Positions 21,923-58,060 of a stretch of DNA of 64,000 nt are shown here, piece by piece. Both the position numbers and the translations under genes were made by a program. How positions within the stretch are numbered: the first letter of the stretch is position 1; every line of letters starts with the position of its first letter. Under the pieces are notes generated by a model, which saw only the letters and a program-made list of their open reading frames with translations, was not told the origin of the DNA and did no database searches. The DNA is from Planctomycetaceae bacterium (GTDB taxonomy: Bacteria; Planctomycetota; Planctomycetia; Pirellulales; Pirellulaceae), in the NCBI GenBank assembly GCA_002723275.1, contig PBNZ01000002.1:264076-328075 (forward strand). Reading direction: 5' to 3'.

Positions 21923-22828
21923 TTAGAGCTTCCACAGCAGAGTGACGTAATAGTCGATGTCATTTGCAAGAGCCCCGTCCGGCGTGCTGTCGTATCGATC
22001 AATGGCACCCAGCTTCAAGCTCAGGTTGGTGGCCTCGTCTAATAACACTTCCCAATTTGCATCGGCAATGATGTGAAAGTCAGAGAATTCTTCCCAGGCT
22101 GGATAATAGTCGACCGTAAGATTCAGCTTTTGACGTTTGGTGAGAGCATGTTCTGCGTCCGCACCAACGTTCGCCTCCGGAATCCACTCGTTATTGAGTC
22201 CGCCAAACTCACGTGATACACCCGCACCAAAGCGGCTCGTCAACGTTGTTCGATCGTTCTTGATGAAGTGATAACCAAGACCACCTGAGTTCGTCATCCG
22301 TATGTCGTAAAACTTGAATTCATCGTATTCGAGAATGGTCTTCGTGTACAAAAACCAGATCGGAGAAATATTCCAATCCCAGCGACCGTCGAGCAAAGCG
22401 TAGTGCTGTGTCTCCACTCCATCCGCTTGTGTCTTGCCGTAATTGATTTTTACTTCGACGGTGCTCGCTTCGGTTTCGCGCTTGAAGGATCCCGATGCCA
22501 TCATGCTGAAGGCTTGCGAGTTACCTTCGGAACCGTTCACTCCTAATTCCATCCCGAAATCCCAAATCGGAGAGTTGAACCACCCCATGGTAGTCGACCA
22601 GGGAGTCCAAAAGTCGGTTGGAGCTTCCGTCAGCAATTCTTCACCCAGTAATTCTTCGGACGTAACTTCCGTAGAAATACTTCCGTCATCGGATCCCGAA
22701 ATAGGCGGCAACAACTGAATCTCACTCTCCTGGGCGGAGAGTCTGGATGGAATACAGTAGGGGATCGCCACGAATGTGAGTACCAGGATCGCGTCAAACA
22801 GTCGATTCATCATGGATTTGGAAACCAT
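21923..22828 (-). CDS. DUF481 outer-membrane protein
   Basis: A 301-aa protein with a signal peptide (MNRLFDAILVLTFVAIPYC, ending near SRLSAQES). The mature part is an alternation of beta strands with aromatic girdles: LGVNGSEGNSQAFSMMASGS, VEVKINYGKTQADGVETQHY, WFLYTKTILEYDEFKFYDIR, LGYHFIKNDRTTLTSRFGAG and a C-terminal YYVTLLWKL ending in a hydrophobic residue. This matches the DUF481 (YdiY-like) family of salt-inducible outer-membrane barrels. Its substrate or role is unknown. It converges with carB. Confidence 0.82.
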   Translation of the reverse strand: MVSKSMMNRLFDAILVLTFVAIPYCIPSRLSAQESEIQLLPPISGSDDGSISTEVTSEELLGEELLTEAPTDFWTPWSTTMGWFNSPIWDFGMELGVNGSEGNSQAFSMMASGSFKRETEASTVEVKINYGKTQADGVETQHYALLDGRWDWNISPIWFLYTKTILEYDEFKFYDIRMTNSGGLGYHFIKNDRTTLTSRFGAGVSREFGGLNNEWIPEANVGADAEHALTKRQKLNLTVDYYPAWEEFSDFHIIADANWEVLLDEATNLSLKLGAIDRYDSTPDGALANDIDYYVTLLWKL

Positions 22829-22941
22829 CGTACAGGCAGTGAATGCTTTTATGCAGTGAATGCAATACCATCACGTACGGACAATCGGGCCAGAGCTTAT
22901 AGCAGGCGATTCCGAAGATAGACAAGAGCAAACTTGCCGGC

Positions 22942-23763
22942 TCAACGCTGGAAAACGAGAGTCATGGCGGCCGCTCCATAACGAGCGACGGGTGAGATTC
23001 TTTCCAGGCCCGCCTCGAAGCGTCCCCACCAATGCCGCAGCTGTCCGGGATTCGTCAGCTGTTTGGGGACAAACCAGCAGTAATCGCGAGCCAAACATTG
23101 CCAGCCAAGTTCTTTTCCAATGTCCTGGTAGTCTCGATCGGTCAGCCAATCAACGCGTGAGATGACCCGATTATAAAGACTTCCAGCATTGAATTCGCGG
23201 AACAGGATGCGGCCTCCCGGACGAACGACGCGATGAATCAATTCCAGCATCTCTCGGTGCGGTCGCATGTACGCCAAAGCGAACTGAGTATAACAACCGT
23301 CGAAACTTTCAGCGGGTTGTTGTGCCAGCATTTCAAAGGCGTCGGCTGCCTGCAGCGTGACATGAAGCGACTTGCCACTACGTTCGGAAAACCAGGAGGT
23401 CATGGCTTGTCCGGCTGCCACTCGTTGTGGATTGTGATCCAGACCCGTGATGGTCGCACCACGCATTGCCAGTAAGTGTGCCTGGGTGGCAACTCCGCAT
23501 CCCAGGTCGAGTAGATGAGGTTGAGTGGACTGAGGGTTGAAGCATCGATCGACGTCGCGAACGAAGGGCGCGAAATGATGCAGAAAATGATTCTGCCAAG
23601 TGATGTACCGGTCGTAATAGTCGTGCATTTGGTCGACCGCAGTCGCCGGAACTTGATCATCGCGAACGGCTGCCAGAAGTTCATTCAGAGCGCACTCGAC
23701 AGTCGCCACGTCGAGTGGCGATTGGACCGCGAAATTCGAAATGGCTTGAGGCGTCTTGGACAA
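22942..23763 (-). CDS. class I SAM-dependent methyltransferase
   Basis: A 273-aa methyltransferase. Motif I is HLLDLGCGVATQAHLLA, followed by ITGLDHNPQRVAAGQ (post-I acidic residue), FDGCYTQFALAYM (motif II) and VVRPGGRILFREFNAGSLYN (motif III). Acceptor unknown. The predicted start is TTG 23763, with no better in-frame ATG before the methyltransferase core. It is divergent from the polysaccharide genes that follow and may or may not belong with them. Confidence 0.85.
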   Translation of the reverse strand: MSKTPQAISNFAVQSPLDVATVECALNELLAAVRDDQVPATAVDQMHDYYDRYITWQNHFLHHFAPFVRDVDRCFNPQSTQPHLLDLGCGVATQAHLLAMRGATITGLDHNPQRVAAGQAMTSWFSERSGKSLHVTLQAADAFEMLAQQPAESFDGCYTQFALAYMRPHREMLELIHRVVRPGGRILFREFNAGSLYNRVISRVDWLTDRDYQDIGKELGWQCLARDYCWFVPKQLTNPGQLRHWWGRFEAGLERISPVARYGAAAMTLVFQR

Positions 23764-54029: not shown

Positions 54030-54062
54030 AAAAAAGGCCTCCCGACATGAATGCGGGAGGCC
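54030..54062 (-). terminator. Rho-independent terminator of the selenoprotein gene
   Basis: A perfect 9-base stem (GGCCTCCCG...CGGGAGGCC, 54036-54044 and 54054-54062) with a 9-base loop. On the minus strand it is followed by TTTTTT (54030-54035), so it terminates the minus-strand gene ending at 54087. It may also stop transcription from the convergent plus-strand gene. Confidence 0.8.
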
Positions 54063-54086
54063 TGATTGAGTGCCCTGATTGCGTGA

Positions 54087-54434
54087 TCAGCCGAGCAAGT
54101 CTTCGTAAATCTCTTCGTTGAACCCGACGATCAGCTTTTTACCGACTCGTAGCGTCGGTGCTCGCAGATTTCCAGTGGGTCCCAAGATCACCTTTTTCAA
54201 ATCGGCAGCTGAGGGCTTTTCTTTTTTCAGGTTGAAGTGAACCACCTTTTTGCCCTTGGCAGCGTAGACTTCGCTGACGGTTTTTAGCAGCTCCATCGCC
54301 TGCTTTTCCCCGAAGGTATCCTTCTTGGCATCGACCTGTTCCGTGGCCTCTAAACCTGCATCCGCAAGGAACCCTTGCGTTTTTCCGCAGGTCTTTCAGC
54401 CAGGACGATGATAACTCCAATCAATTTTCGGCAT
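54087..54434 (-). CDS. ArsC-family selenoprotein (UGA read as Sec)
   Basis: A 115-aa thioredoxin-fold protein whose reading frame contains an in-frame TGA. ATG 54434 follows GAGGAG about 6 bases away. The frame reads MPKIDWSYHRPG, then TGA (54396-54398, codon 13), then KTCGKTQGFLADAGLEATEQ and on to the stop at 54087. The TGA sits where the first Cys of CxxC would be, giving UKTC, a UxxC redox motif. The C-terminal half has GPTGNLRAPTLRVGKKLIVG and GFNEEIYEDLLG, as in ArsC/Spx-type proteins. A SECIS-like hairpin follows the TGA. The gene is monocistronic, with a terminator 25 bases downstream. The substrate is unknown; a redox role is inferred from the motif. Confidence 0.9.
54355..54391 (-). 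promoter_or_regulatory. candidate bacterial SECIS element
   Basis: Read on the minus strand, the structure starts 5 bases after the TGA. Its lower stem is CCTGC (54391-54387) with GCAGG (54359-54355). An internal loop follows, then a perfect 7-base upper stem CGCAAGG (54379-54373) with CCTTGCG (54369-54363) and a GTT loop. If the top pairs open, the loop begins with GGGTT. The apical G-rich loop lies about 22 bases after the TGA, as in known bacterial SECIS elements that recruit SelB. Confidence 0.8.
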
Positions 54435-54561
54435 GTTATTCTCCTCTCGATAAGCGGTCAAGAATCTCTATGATGATATAGTCAGTTTGTCGGAATCAGC
54501 AATCGGGTGCTGATAACTTCCGCGTCGTTGACGTGGCTCTCCTGTCGCATTTGGAACCGTA

Positions 54562-55683
54562 ATGAGCTCGGATGCTATTGATTTCTGCTTACCAGATGCG
54601 TCCTGGAATCGACGAGTTCGCCGGTCCTTGTTGACTTGGTTTCGCCGTAACGCGCGTGATCTACCATGGCGTCGAAATCGAGATCCCTATCGGATTTGGA
54701 TCAGCGAAGTCATGCTGCAGCAGACGCAGGTCGAAACCGTCAAGCCGTACTTCAACCGGTTTGTGAAACGATTTCCGCGTGTCGAAGTGCTGGCCAATGC
54801 TGATGAGCAGGAAGTCTTGCGGCATTGGGAGGGTCTGGGTTATTACCGCCGTGCTCGCCAGCTGCATCGCGCAGCAAAGATGATCTGTGACGAATATGGA
54901 GGTCAATTCCCACGCGATCCTGACGAGGTACGAGCACTGCCCGGTATTGGTCGGTATACGGCTGGAGCAATTCTTTCAATTGCTTTTGATGCGCGCGAAC
55001 CGATCGTTGAAGGTAATACACTTCGCCTCTATAGCCGATTACTTGCCTATCGAGATGACCCTCGTGCGACAAGCGGCCAACGCGTGCTGTGGTCTTTCGC
55101 TGAATCAGTACTCCCGCGGCAGCAGACCGGAGAATTCAATCAGGCGTTGATGGAATTGGGAAGTCTTGTTTGCACACCTCGTTCCCCGCAATGTGATGAA
55201 TGCCCCGTGAAAAGTCTCTGCCCGACCTATGGGCATGGTTGGCAGGATCAGATTCCGACCGCTGCGAAAAAGATTGTTTACGAAGACGTTAATGAGGTGG
55301 CCGTGGTGGTGCGGAAAAAGAACGCTGTATTGCTGCGTCGTTGCGGAGAGGGAGAAAGATGGGCGGGACTCTGGGATTTTCCCAGGTTCCGTTCCGAAGA
55401 TCCGACACAATCACCTCCGGAACTTGAGGAACGTGTTCAGCAATTGACCGGCGTCCGTGTTGAAGATGCGCAATGGGTAACGGAGATCAAACACGCCGTT
55501 ACTCGCTATCGAATTACTCTTAGTTGTTTTGAAGCGCACTACCAATCGGGTCGCAAAAGGAGCGGCGAGGAATGTGCCTGGGTGACCGTGGATCAGTTGA
55601 GTGACTATCCGCTGAGTGTGACGGGCCGTCGTATCGGACGACTCGTGGCTGCCGGTGCCTTCGGTAAATCTGCCGCCCTATGA
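54562..55683 (+). CDS. mutY: A/G-specific adenine glycosylase
   Basis: A 373-aa base-excision repair enzyme that removes adenine mispaired with 8-oxoguanine. It has the HhH-GPD core: WISEVMLQQTQVETVKPYFN, LPGIGRYTAGAILSIAFDAR with the catalytic-domain Asp region EPIVEGNTLRLYSRLLAY, and the 4Fe-4S site CTPRSPQCDECPVKSLC (C-x6-C-x2-C-x5-C). A C-terminal NUDIX-like domain follows (VVVRKKNAVLLRRCGEGERW). It is divergent from the selenoprotein gene and its 3' end overlaps trpC by 6 bases. Confidence 0.95.
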   Translation: MSSDAIDFCLPDASWNRRVRRSLLTWFRRNARDLPWRRNRDPYRIWISEVMLQQTQVETVKPYFNRFVKRFPRVEVLANADEQEVLRHWEGLGYYRRARQLHRAAKMICDEYGGQFPRDPDEVRALPGIGRYTAGAILSIAFDAREPIVEGNTLRLYSRLLAYRDDPRATSGQRVLWSFAESVLPRQQTGEFNQALMELGSLVCTPRSPQCDECPVKSLCPTYGHGWQDQIPTAAKKIVYEDVNEVAVVVRKKNAVLLRRCGEGERWAGLWDFPRFRSEDPTQSPPELEERVQQLTGVRVEDAQWVTEIKHAVTRYRITLSCFEAHYQSGRKRSGEECAWVTVDQLSDYPLSVTGRRIGRLVAAGAFGKSAAL

Positions 55684-56460
55684 ATTGAGTAATTCATCGA
55701 CCGACGCGCCGATGTCGGGTTTCTTCATCAGTCTTTCGCCGACGAGTAACGCGTTGACGCCTGCTGCTTCGAGCTTCACGACGTCAGCACGACTATCGAT
55801 ACCGCTCTCGCCGACCAAAAGACAGTCGGATGGGATTTTTTCCCGCATTTGAATCGTATGGTCCAAATCGACTTTGAAGGTTCGCAGATCACGATTGTTA
55901 ACACCGATCAGTGTTGCACCGGCATCCAACACGCGAGATAGATTCTCGGGTTCGTAGAATTCAACCAAAGGAGTCAGTCCCAGTTCGATCGACTCGTTAT
56001 GGAGCTTTCGCAGGTCACAGTCGTCCAAGCATTCGGCGATCAGCAAGACACCGTCGGCACCTGCGGCGCGAGCTTCCAGGAGCTGGTAATGATCGAGGAT
56101 GAAATCCTTACGAAGCAAAGGAACTTCGACAACCTTGCGAATTTCCGCGAGATAGTCGAGTGATCCTTGGAAATAGGATTCGTCGGTGAGCACGCTAATG
56201 CAGGATGCGCCATGTTGTGCGTAGATTTGAGCGATCTGTACGGGATCGAAGTCTGCACGAATCACTCCCTTGGAAGGACTCGCCTTTTTGACTTCTGCGA
56301 TCAGCTTGATGCGTCCTTCCGGAAGCAATGCATCGAAAAAGGAACGAACAGCAGGGGCATTTTCGACAGCGGTGCGCAATTCCGACTCAGGCCTGCGCTC
56401 TTTCGCAGCCTGGATTTCACCTTTTTTCGTGGCGACGATTTTGTCGAGAATGGTTGTCAC
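55678..56460 (-). CDS. trpC: indole-3-glycerol phosphate synthase
   Basis: A 260-aa TIM barrel of tryptophan synthesis. It has LDKIVATKKGEIQAAKERRP, LIAEVKKASPSKGVIRADFD, GASCISVLTDESYFQGSLDY, LLRKDFILDHYQLLEARAAG, DGVLLIAECL, LVEFYEPENLSRVLDAG, LIGVNNRDLRTFKVDLDHT and LLVGESGIDSRADVVKLEAA. All catalytic Lys, Glu and Asn positions appear intact. Other trp genes are not adjacent. It is followed upstream by purH, 25 bases away on the same strand. Confidence 0.97.
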   Translation of the reverse strand: MTTILDKIVATKKGEIQAAKERRPESELRTAVENAPAVRSFFDALLPEGRIKLIAEVKKASPSKGVIRADFDPVQIAQIYAQHGASCISVLTDESYFQGSLDYLAEIRKVVEVPLLRKDFILDHYQLLEARAAGADGVLLIAECLDDCDLRKLHNESIELGLTPLVEFYEPENLSRVLDAGATLIGVNNRDLRTFKVDLDHTIQMREKIPSDCLLVGESGIDSRADVVKLEAAGVNALLVGERLMKKPDIGASVDELLNS

Positions 56461-56485: not shown

Positions 56486-58060
56486 TTAGTGTTTGAAATG
56501 CCTTTTTCCGGTGAAGATCATCGGCAGTCGGTGCTCGTTACAGGCGTCAATGACTTCCGAGTCACGTTTCGATCCGCCGGGCTGAATGATCGCCGCAATT
56601 CCCGCTTGGGCCGCTCGTTGGATTGAGTCGGGAAAGGGGAAAAATGCATCCGACGACAACACGGCTCCGTTCGCTCGCTTCCCCGCTTTTTGTAAGGCAA
56701 TTTCTACGGAGTCCACACGGCTCATCTGGCCGGCACCGGCACCCCACAGGGCGAGATCATTTGTCACGGTGATGGCATTGCTCTTCACATGACGAACGAC
56801 CGCCCAACCGAATCTGAGCTCCCTAGCCAGTCGATCATCCGGTTGTGCCTCGGTAACCACTTTCCATTCATCATACTCATCAGGATTCATGTCGGCCTCT
56901 TGGACCAACATGCCACCGCCAATCTGTCGATAGGCGACTTGTGCTTTGGTGCTTTCGAGTTCACCCACTTCCATCAAGCGGACATTGTTTTTCCACTTCG
57001 GCCGTGTCGTTAAGATCTCGACGGATTCCGGAGAGAAACTCGGAGCGCCGATCGCCTCGATGAACAGTCCGGGCGTGGAAAGCACTTCGGCGGTTGCCGC
57101 ATCGACTGGTTGATTGAAGGCGAGAATCGATCCAAAGGCGCTGACCGGATCACCGTCCAACGCTTTCTGCACTGCCGGTGCTAGTTCGTCGGCCGAAGCA
57201 CAACCGCAGGGATTGTTATGTTTGATGACGACAGCTGCGGATCCCGGTAGTGATCGGACGATTGACAGGGCGCTGTCGAGATCCAGCAGATTGTTGTAGG
57301 ACAGCTCTTTTCCATTGAGCTGCCGCGCTGAAATCAGACTGGGGCCCGAAGAAGTGCCATCGCTGTAAACGGCAGCCTGCTGATGTGGGTTTTCTCCATA
57401 TCGCAATACAGCTTTACGCTGCAACTGAATCGAAACATTTTCGGGGAAGACTTCGTCGGAAGCTCCCAGTTGTTCCTGGAAATAGGAACTGATCGCGGCA
57501 TCATAAGCGGCAGTTCGGGTGAAGGCCGCACCGGCGAGTTGCTGTCGGAGTTCAAAGCTGGTCGAGCCCTGTTCCTGCACCTGCTGCAAAATGCTTGCAT
57601 ATTGTTCCGGTGCTGTTGCGATCGTTGTGAAGGCATGGTTCTTGGCGGCTGCTCGGACAAGGCTCGGACCGCCGATGTCGATCTGCTCGATCGCTTCCGG
57701 CATCGTCACGCCTTCTCGGGCCACCGTGGCTTCGAACGGATAGAGATTGACGACGACCAGTTCGAAACTGGCAATTCCATGTTCGCCGATCGCTTGCATA
57801 TCATCGTCGCGGTCATGACGGCAAAGAATCCCGCCGAAGACCTTCGGATGCAATGTTTTCAGTCGACCGTCCATCATTTCAGGAAAGCCGGTGTATTCCG
57901 AGATATCCTTGACCTCAAGGTCGTTATCACGAAGATGACGCGCCGTACCGCCTGTGCTGTAGATTTCGACGCCTGCTTCGGCCAGTCCCTTCGCAAAGTC
58001 TGCCAGTCCTAGTTTGTCACTCACGCTGATTAGCGCGCGTTGGATCGGTGGGGAATCCAT
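56486..58060 (-). CDS. purH: bifunctional AICAR formyltransferase/IMP cyclohydrolase
   Basis: A 524-aa enzyme for the last two steps of purine synthesis. The N-terminal MGS-like IMP cyclohydrolase opens ALISVSDKLGLADFAKGLAE and has IYSTGGTARHLRD, TGFPEMMDGRLKTLHPKVFG and LVVVNLYPFEATV. The C-terminal transformylase has LRYGENPHQQAAVY, ELSYNNLLDLDSALSIVRSL, AAVVIKHNNPCGCASADELA (the catalytic KHxNPCG) and VLSSDAFFPFPDSIQRAAQA. Length is normal. The gene pairs with trpC, 25 bases downstream. Confidence 0.97.
   Translation of the reverse strand: MDSPPIQRALISVSDKLGLADFAKGLAEAGVEIYSTGGTARHLRDNDLEVKDISEYTGFPEMMDGRLKTLHPKVFGGILCRHDRDDDMQAIGEHGIASFELVVVNLYPFEATVAREGVTMPEAIEQIDIGGPSLVRAAAKNHAFTTIATAPEQYASILQQVQEQGSTSFELRQQLAGAAFTRTAAYDAAISSYFQEQLGASDEVFPENVSIQLQRKAVLRYGENPHQQAAVYSDGTSSGPSLISARQLNGKELSYNNLLDLDSALSIVRSLPGSAAVVIKHNNPCGCASADELAPAVQKALDGDPVSAFGSILAFNQPVDAATAEVLSTPGLFIEAIGAPSFSPESVEILTTRPKWKNNVRLMEVGELESTKAQVAYRQIGGGMLVQEADMNPDEYDEWKVVTEAQPDDRLARELRFGWAVVRHVKSNAITVTNDLALWGAGAGQMSRVDSVEIALQKAGKRANGAVLSSDAFFPFPDSIQRAAQAGIAAIIQPGGSKRDSEVIDACNEHRLPMIFTGKRHFKH

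Follow-up and report, generated by a model that had tools for sequence, protein, structure and literature searches.

The window analysed here is a 64,000-nucleotide stretch of the genome of a Planctomycetaceae bacterium (assembly GCA_002723275.1, contig PBNZ01000002.1, forward-strand positions 264,076 to 328,075), and all positions given below are counted from its first letter. On the minus strand of the window, an ATG at 54434 opens a frame of 115 residues once the TGA at codon 13 is read through, with the translated product MPKIDWSYHRPG-U-KTCGKTQ... (Table 1). The motif around codon 13 is HRPG-U-KTC, in which Sec13 and Cys16 form a UxxC pair. The first-pass annotation of this DNA had joined a 12-residue start with a Shine-Dalgarno sequence (GAGGAG) to the long frame beyond the TGA and had placed selenocysteine at the first position of a redox pair (UKTC), and its coordinates are correct on both points. 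It had further expected ordinary gene calling to settle on an internal ATG and to lose the active site, as is indeed the case in the unrecoded open-reading-frame list, which holds just a 69-residue fragment from ATG 54296. The assigned start is also supported by homologues (L048, L054, L055, L058, L073, L074 and L075 among them) with upstream open frames of 3 to 8 codons, the Met of which falls at the place of the window start or at most one or two residues away from it.

Table 1. Features of the selenoprotein locus, in window coordinates
Feature	Position	Strand	Basis
Shine-Dalgarno-like GAGGAG, 6-base spacer to ATG	54441..54446	-	Read from sequence
Selenoprotein gene, 115 residues plus TGA stop	54087..54434	-	Frame, NF041106 score, homologue rows
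In-frame TGA, codon 13, read as selenocysteine	54396..54398	-	Frame and homologue codons
Second Cys codon, residue 16	54389-54387	-	Sequence
Outer 9-bp helix (54394-54386 with 54360-54352) around the apical hairpin	54352..54394	-	Fold
SECIS-like apical hairpin (7-bp stem, GUU loop) 16 nt downstream of the UGA	54363..54379	-	Fold and homologue rows
Terminal stop TGA	54089-54087	-	Sequence
Terminator-like hairpin: 10-bp arms 54063-54054 and 54044-54035, loop 9, then T run (minus strand)	54030..54063	.	Sequence

The near-perfect inverted repeat listed last in Table 1 lies between the convergent ends of the selenoprotein gene and an EcsC-like gene and is perhaps a terminator; the hairpin scan of the window had a loop limit of 8 and omits it. 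The EcsC-like neighbour and a MutY-like neighbour are both encoded on the strand opposite to the selenoprotein gene. Across 137 loci, no gene family was found to accompany the gene from phylum to phylum. The largest neighbour cluster (15 of the 137 loci) consists of minus-strand open reading frames that overlap the gene itself as an antisense reading, and the clusters named by eye include a sulfatase-like one at mixed positions (13 loci) and a ferrochelatase-like one upstream (seven loci). A second in-frame TGA in the window, at 22873 on the minus strand (UWYC; 21923-23149), was considered and rejected: the frame that follows it encodes a DUF481 protein for which an ATG and a signal-like N-terminus are present downstream of the TGA, as in an ordinary gene. 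A crude scan of the window returned 33 other matches to a TGA with a nearby Cys, one of which, at 56520, lies between the frames 56486-58060 and 55678-56460.

For scoring against family profiles the Sec residue was written as Cys. The window protein matches the NCBIfam model NF041106 ('ArsC family (seleno)protein') with 145.9 bits against a cut-off of 85 over the entire profile (1-107 of 107), and the conservation spans residues 4-110. The Pfam ArsC family PF03960 is also matched (25.7 bits, cut-off 24). The scores against TIGR01617 (Spx/MgsR; 30.9 bits, cut-off 75.05) and against two Spx models (23.3 bits with a cut-off of 123 and 21.4 bits with a cut-off of 159) all lie below threshold, and TIGR00014, the model of true ArsC, gives no row for the window protein at E<=10, with Escherichia coli ArsC scoring 137.2 bits. 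A profile search of PDB sequences was led by Spx (6.8e-10), with U13 and C16 aligned to the two cysteines of the Spx CxxC motif; no canonical ArsC appeared in the PDB sequence matches at E<=1, which is no proof of difference. In the cis-proline region the protein carries a near-invariant LRAP, with Ala in place of the arginine that precedes the cis-proline in ArsC (R94, motif NRP), a position of the arginine triad of the ArsC active site; this correspondence was drawn by eye, the MAFFT alignment to E. coli ArsC being poor at the C-terminal end and misplacing the region. By sequence the window protein is nearer to the Spx/MgsR branch than to true arsenate reductase.

An AlphaFold2 model built from an alignment of 57 homologue rows (pLDDT 93.1, pTM 0.86) has a predicted Spx-like fold in which helix 1 comprises residues 14-25, with Sec13 at its N-terminal end and Cys16 one turn further on. 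At E<=0.001 Foldseek returned six matches, all of them to Spx chains or the Spx-like SMU.1142C. VIA-align 2 ranks Spx 3ihq first (Z 8.9, r.m.s.d. 2.9, 88 residues aligned), with 2m46 (Z 8.7) and YffB 1rw1 (Z 8.4) tied, and the arsenate reductases 3rdw (Z 7.7) and 3f0i (Z 7.2) follow at only about one Z unit below the best Spx. The comparison of the predicted fold does not firmly separate Spx from ArsC. These Z values and the PF03960 score could accommodate a selenium-containing arsenate reductase, but the silence of TIGR00014 and the lead of Spx among the PDB sequences make this assignment unlikely, and the Ala in LRAP, if the hand alignment is right, would speak against it too. The predicted fold and the location of Sec where helix 1 begins, taken with general selenoenzyme chemistry, point to a putative cytosolic thiol/selenol oxidoreductase of the thioredoxin-like Spx/ArsC superfamily.

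The same Spx matches, with the UxxC pair in register with the Spx CxxC, would also suit a regulator that binds RNA polymerase and in which a selenenylsulfide switch replaces the Spx disulfide. The protein nevertheless scores far under the Spx cut-offs, and YffB- and glutaredoxin-type enzymes are found among the fold matches as well, so that such a role is improbable. Framed more specifically as a selenium redox sensor, in which a Sec13-Cys16 selenenylsulfide would switch the binding of RNA polymerase or of another partner, the proposal is quite improbable, and the evidence does not favour it above an ordinary oxidoreductase. If it were true, planctomycetes and acidobacteria would use a selenol switch in gene regulation.

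The identity of codon 13 was followed through the homologues of the gene. A search with the NF041106 profile gave matches over the cut-off in 80 of 392 phylum genomes and in 28 of 100 family genomes, and the codon was read in 57 full-length loci (L022-L078, the window's own being L023). The equivalent of codon 13 is TGA in 46 of these, TGC in nine and TGT in two. All 57 aligned rows have the second Cys of the motif, and W6, Y8, R10, residue 13 and C16 are invariant among them (Sec and Cys being taken together at residue 13). A scan of named contigs yielded at least 570 confirmed relatives; the best 80 of these, and hence the nearest to the window protein, comprise 68 with TGA at the expected codon, ten in which an N-terminal insert moves the TGA one or two codons further along, and one each with TGT and TGC. 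Pooling the 57 loci with these 80 and removing identical stretches left 126 distinct rows, the window included, of which 113 carry TGA, 13 carry a Cys codon (TGC or TGT) and none carries any other codon; the rows are mutually related and hence not independent. The partial match L079 at a contig end and matches below the cut-off, some of them with one TGA (G065, G107, G223, G018 and G072), were left out.

The record titles of the best 80 of the at least 570 relatives name Planctomycetota, Acidobacteria, Methylomirabilota, Rokubacteria, Zixibacteria, Tectomicrobia, Verrucomicrobia and others, although some of these labels are doubtful. The bin labels of L110 (CAMBFS010000010.1, titled Klebsiella pneumoniae) and L132 (CAMDPK010000015.1, titled Candidatus Kuenenia) look wrong, their copies resembling those from other phyla or from Planctomyces-labelled bins. 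One TGA-form row, L135 (Bryobacterales), has CGC (Arg) at the second motif position, giving UxxR; this codon is one base from Cys and reflects either an error or a real variant. As judged by this comparison, UGA at codon 13 has been kept across several phyla, exchanging solely with Cys. The first-pass annotation had held a chance nonsense mutation at this very residue to be unlikely and had proposed a search for homologues with Cys or TGA at the position; the counts agree with the former, and the search recovered both kinds and no homologue with neither.

The selenoprotein reading of the first-pass annotation stands and can be refined by a candidate Sec-insertion hairpin that it did not mention. 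The 70 nucleotides from 54410 to 54341 have a folding energy of -32 kcal/mol compared with -19.4 (s.d. 2.9) for shuffled sequences (z = -4.38, none of 200 as good). A stem of at least 6 bp at the fixed place is found in 106 of the 113 TGA rows and in none of the 13 Cys rows, by a placed-stem statistic that was devised after the sequences had been viewed and after a 48-nt energy test had failed. In a control that replaced codons by synonymous ones sampled from elsewhere in the genes, 6 bp were reached in 5.2% of cases for the TGA rows and 0.5% for the Cys rows, and the same control on the window's own protein gave p = 0.010. In the 46 TGA rows of the 57-row alignment, 78.6% of the cells of the apical stem are paired, compared with 29.8-68.9% when the partner strand is slid by one to three columns, and four of the seven pairs show two-sided changes; a slide of -2 has a higher covariation score (0.227 versus 0.198) with fewer cells paired (68.9 versus 78.6%). 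In the 11 Cys rows the apical stem is 39.0% paired, which is lower than at three of the six slides. Pairing in the outer helix is poorly preserved (39.4% of cells over the 46 rows), and the copy L054, from the same genus, is predicted to form this helix completely.

Two broader tests gave null results. RNAalifold, applied to the 46 TGA rows, missed the hairpin and returned just four unrelated pairs. The 48-nt energy test, with synonymous shuffles within each gene (125 rows, L150 being dropped for an offset misfit), gave median z values of -0.87 (TGA rows) and -0.70 (Cys rows), which do not differ (Mann-Whitney p = 0.48). In our view these outcomes could arise because the signal is a single short stem at one place, which in some clades is partly displaced by a base and is drowned out by the remainder of the sequence. 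A search of the window against Rfam gave no match at gathering score, and the matches around the gene were at chance level. Comparison of the rows indicates that a hairpin 16 nt past the UGA, at the place of a bacterial SECIS element, goes with the TGA form of the gene and not with the Cys form.

The genome from which the window derives (6.8 Mb in 47 contigs, 96.6% complete) encodes the components required for selenocysteine insertion. On contig 29 selB (386 bits) adjoins selA (578 bits), and the same contig carries a tRNA-Sec gene (71 bits; identified by ARAGORN as tRNA-SeC with anticodon tca). The selD gene (356 bits) itself contains an in-frame TGA, in ASCAGUAGK. All of selA, selB, selC and selD, for which the first-pass annotation had proposed to search, are thus present; of the outcomes that it had named as refuting, neither a genome without selB and selC nor homologues with neither Cys nor TGA at the position was observed. 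This selD (L012, contig 44, 1006-1932, minus strand) is a second probable selenoprotein gene of the genome, and selD copies with one TGA also occur in G393, G434, G450, G135 and G268.

The association between the TGA form and this machinery extends to the genomes searched. In the phylum, selA at E<=1e-60 is present in 66 of the 70 genomes with a TGA homologue and in two of the ten with a homologue lacking the TGA (Fisher p = 7e-7, the genomes not being independent), and in 174 of the 312 genomes with no homologue over the cut-off. The class was assigned from the count of in-frame stops for 51 of the 81 phylum matches over the cut-off (one of which, G353, was codon-read as L076), and nine of the ten non-TGA genomes were codon-read, G268 being left out. 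In the family, as counted by eye, selA is over the cut-off in 24 of the 26 TGA genomes and in both Cys genomes. No selA over the cut-off was found in the remaining four phylum and two same-family TGA genomes; among these six, selB was found in G332, G264 and G173 and selD in G393 and G450, and G302 (79% complete) lacks selA, selB and selD. G393, of the same family and 99% complete, has TGA copies of both the selenoprotein gene and selD with neither selA nor selB over threshold; this is probably an assembly gap, as its genus mate G456 has selA. Across the 12 non-TGA genomes, selB occurs in four and selD in four.

These observations bear on three further ways of accounting for the TGA: translation of a 69-residue protein from ATG 54296, decoding of UGA as some other amino acid, or partial read-through without Sec. 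ATG 54296 does open an ordinary frame, but the conservation and the invariant residues extend well upstream of it and include codon 13 itself. Cys as the sole swap partner of TGA, the use of TGA as a normal stop in the selenoprotein frame and in other frames, and the tRNA-Sec gene also speak against them; taken together, these accounts are highly improbable. That the TGA is a nonsense mutation in a pseudogene or a sequencing mistake for TGC or TGT, codons one base away that do stand at this position in the 13 Cys rows, is implausible to the point of being negligible because the same TGA occurs in 112 other distinct rows, the frame is otherwise conserved, the hairpin accompanies the TGA form alone and the genome has the full Sec machinery.

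As a whole, the locus is best explained as a functional bacterial selenoprotein gene of NF041106, and we consider this very probably correct. By analogy with the established SelB pathway, SelB carrying Sec-tRNA(Sec) would bind the hairpin and decode the UGA. In the mature protein Sec13 would act as the attacking selenolate, Cys16 would resolve it to form a selenenylsulfide, and a cellular thiol system would then reduce this bond again.

A quick tree of the 126 rows, calculated with codon 13 masked, requires at least nine changes of state between TGA and Cys; changes were counted without direction, and support is low (19 to 92) for some of the branches adjacent to Cys rows. Cys forms occur both with and without the Sec machinery. 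Five genomes (G419, G434, G135, G268 and G150) have a non-TGA form and yet retain part or all of the machinery, so that exchange to Cys does not appear to wait for loss of the machinery. Such exchanges make NF041106, a family widespread in bacteria, suited to the study of Sec gain and loss. The locus also offers a clean test case, as plain open-reading-frame calling shortens the gene and all of the signs of Sec are visible by comparison: the TGA/Cys exchange, the disappearance of the hairpin from Cys forms and the association with the Sec machinery.

The family itself is already catalogued, and the window locus is an ordinary member of it, with nothing found that sets it apart. The first-pass annotation had rightly said that the family is not new, as it has its own NCBI model and entries in two review tables. 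An 'Arsenate reductase-like protein' with UxxC is listed under NF041106 in a 2026 review (PMC13188914) and under COG1393 in a 2022 paper (PMC9312934); the window protein has the same UxxC and matches that NCBI model over its full length and above its cut-off. 'Arsenate reductase 2' (cd03032, UxxC), with 42 sequences in the Global Ocean Sampling selenoproteome published in 2008 (PMC2398784), consists of metagenomic reads; it shares the ArsC-type fold and UxxC and, going by its description, is probably the same family. ArsC-like selenoproteins were also listed in 2006 (PMC1794560), and a planctomycete genome paper describes selenoproteins in two strains (PMC4807772). The arsenate reductase selenoprotein reported from the Sargasso Sea in 2005 (PMC1088965) and 'ArsC 1' of PMC2398784 have in common with the window protein a Sec residue in the ArsC superfamily. 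This group differs in having UxxS rather than UxxC and is placed in PMC13188914 under TIGR00014, which the window protein does not match. Relative to Spx/MgsR (TIGR01617; PDB entries 1z3e and 3ihq), the predicted fold and the place of the CxxC motif are alike, but in the window protein Sec replaces the first Cys and the TIGR01617 score falls well short of the cut-off.
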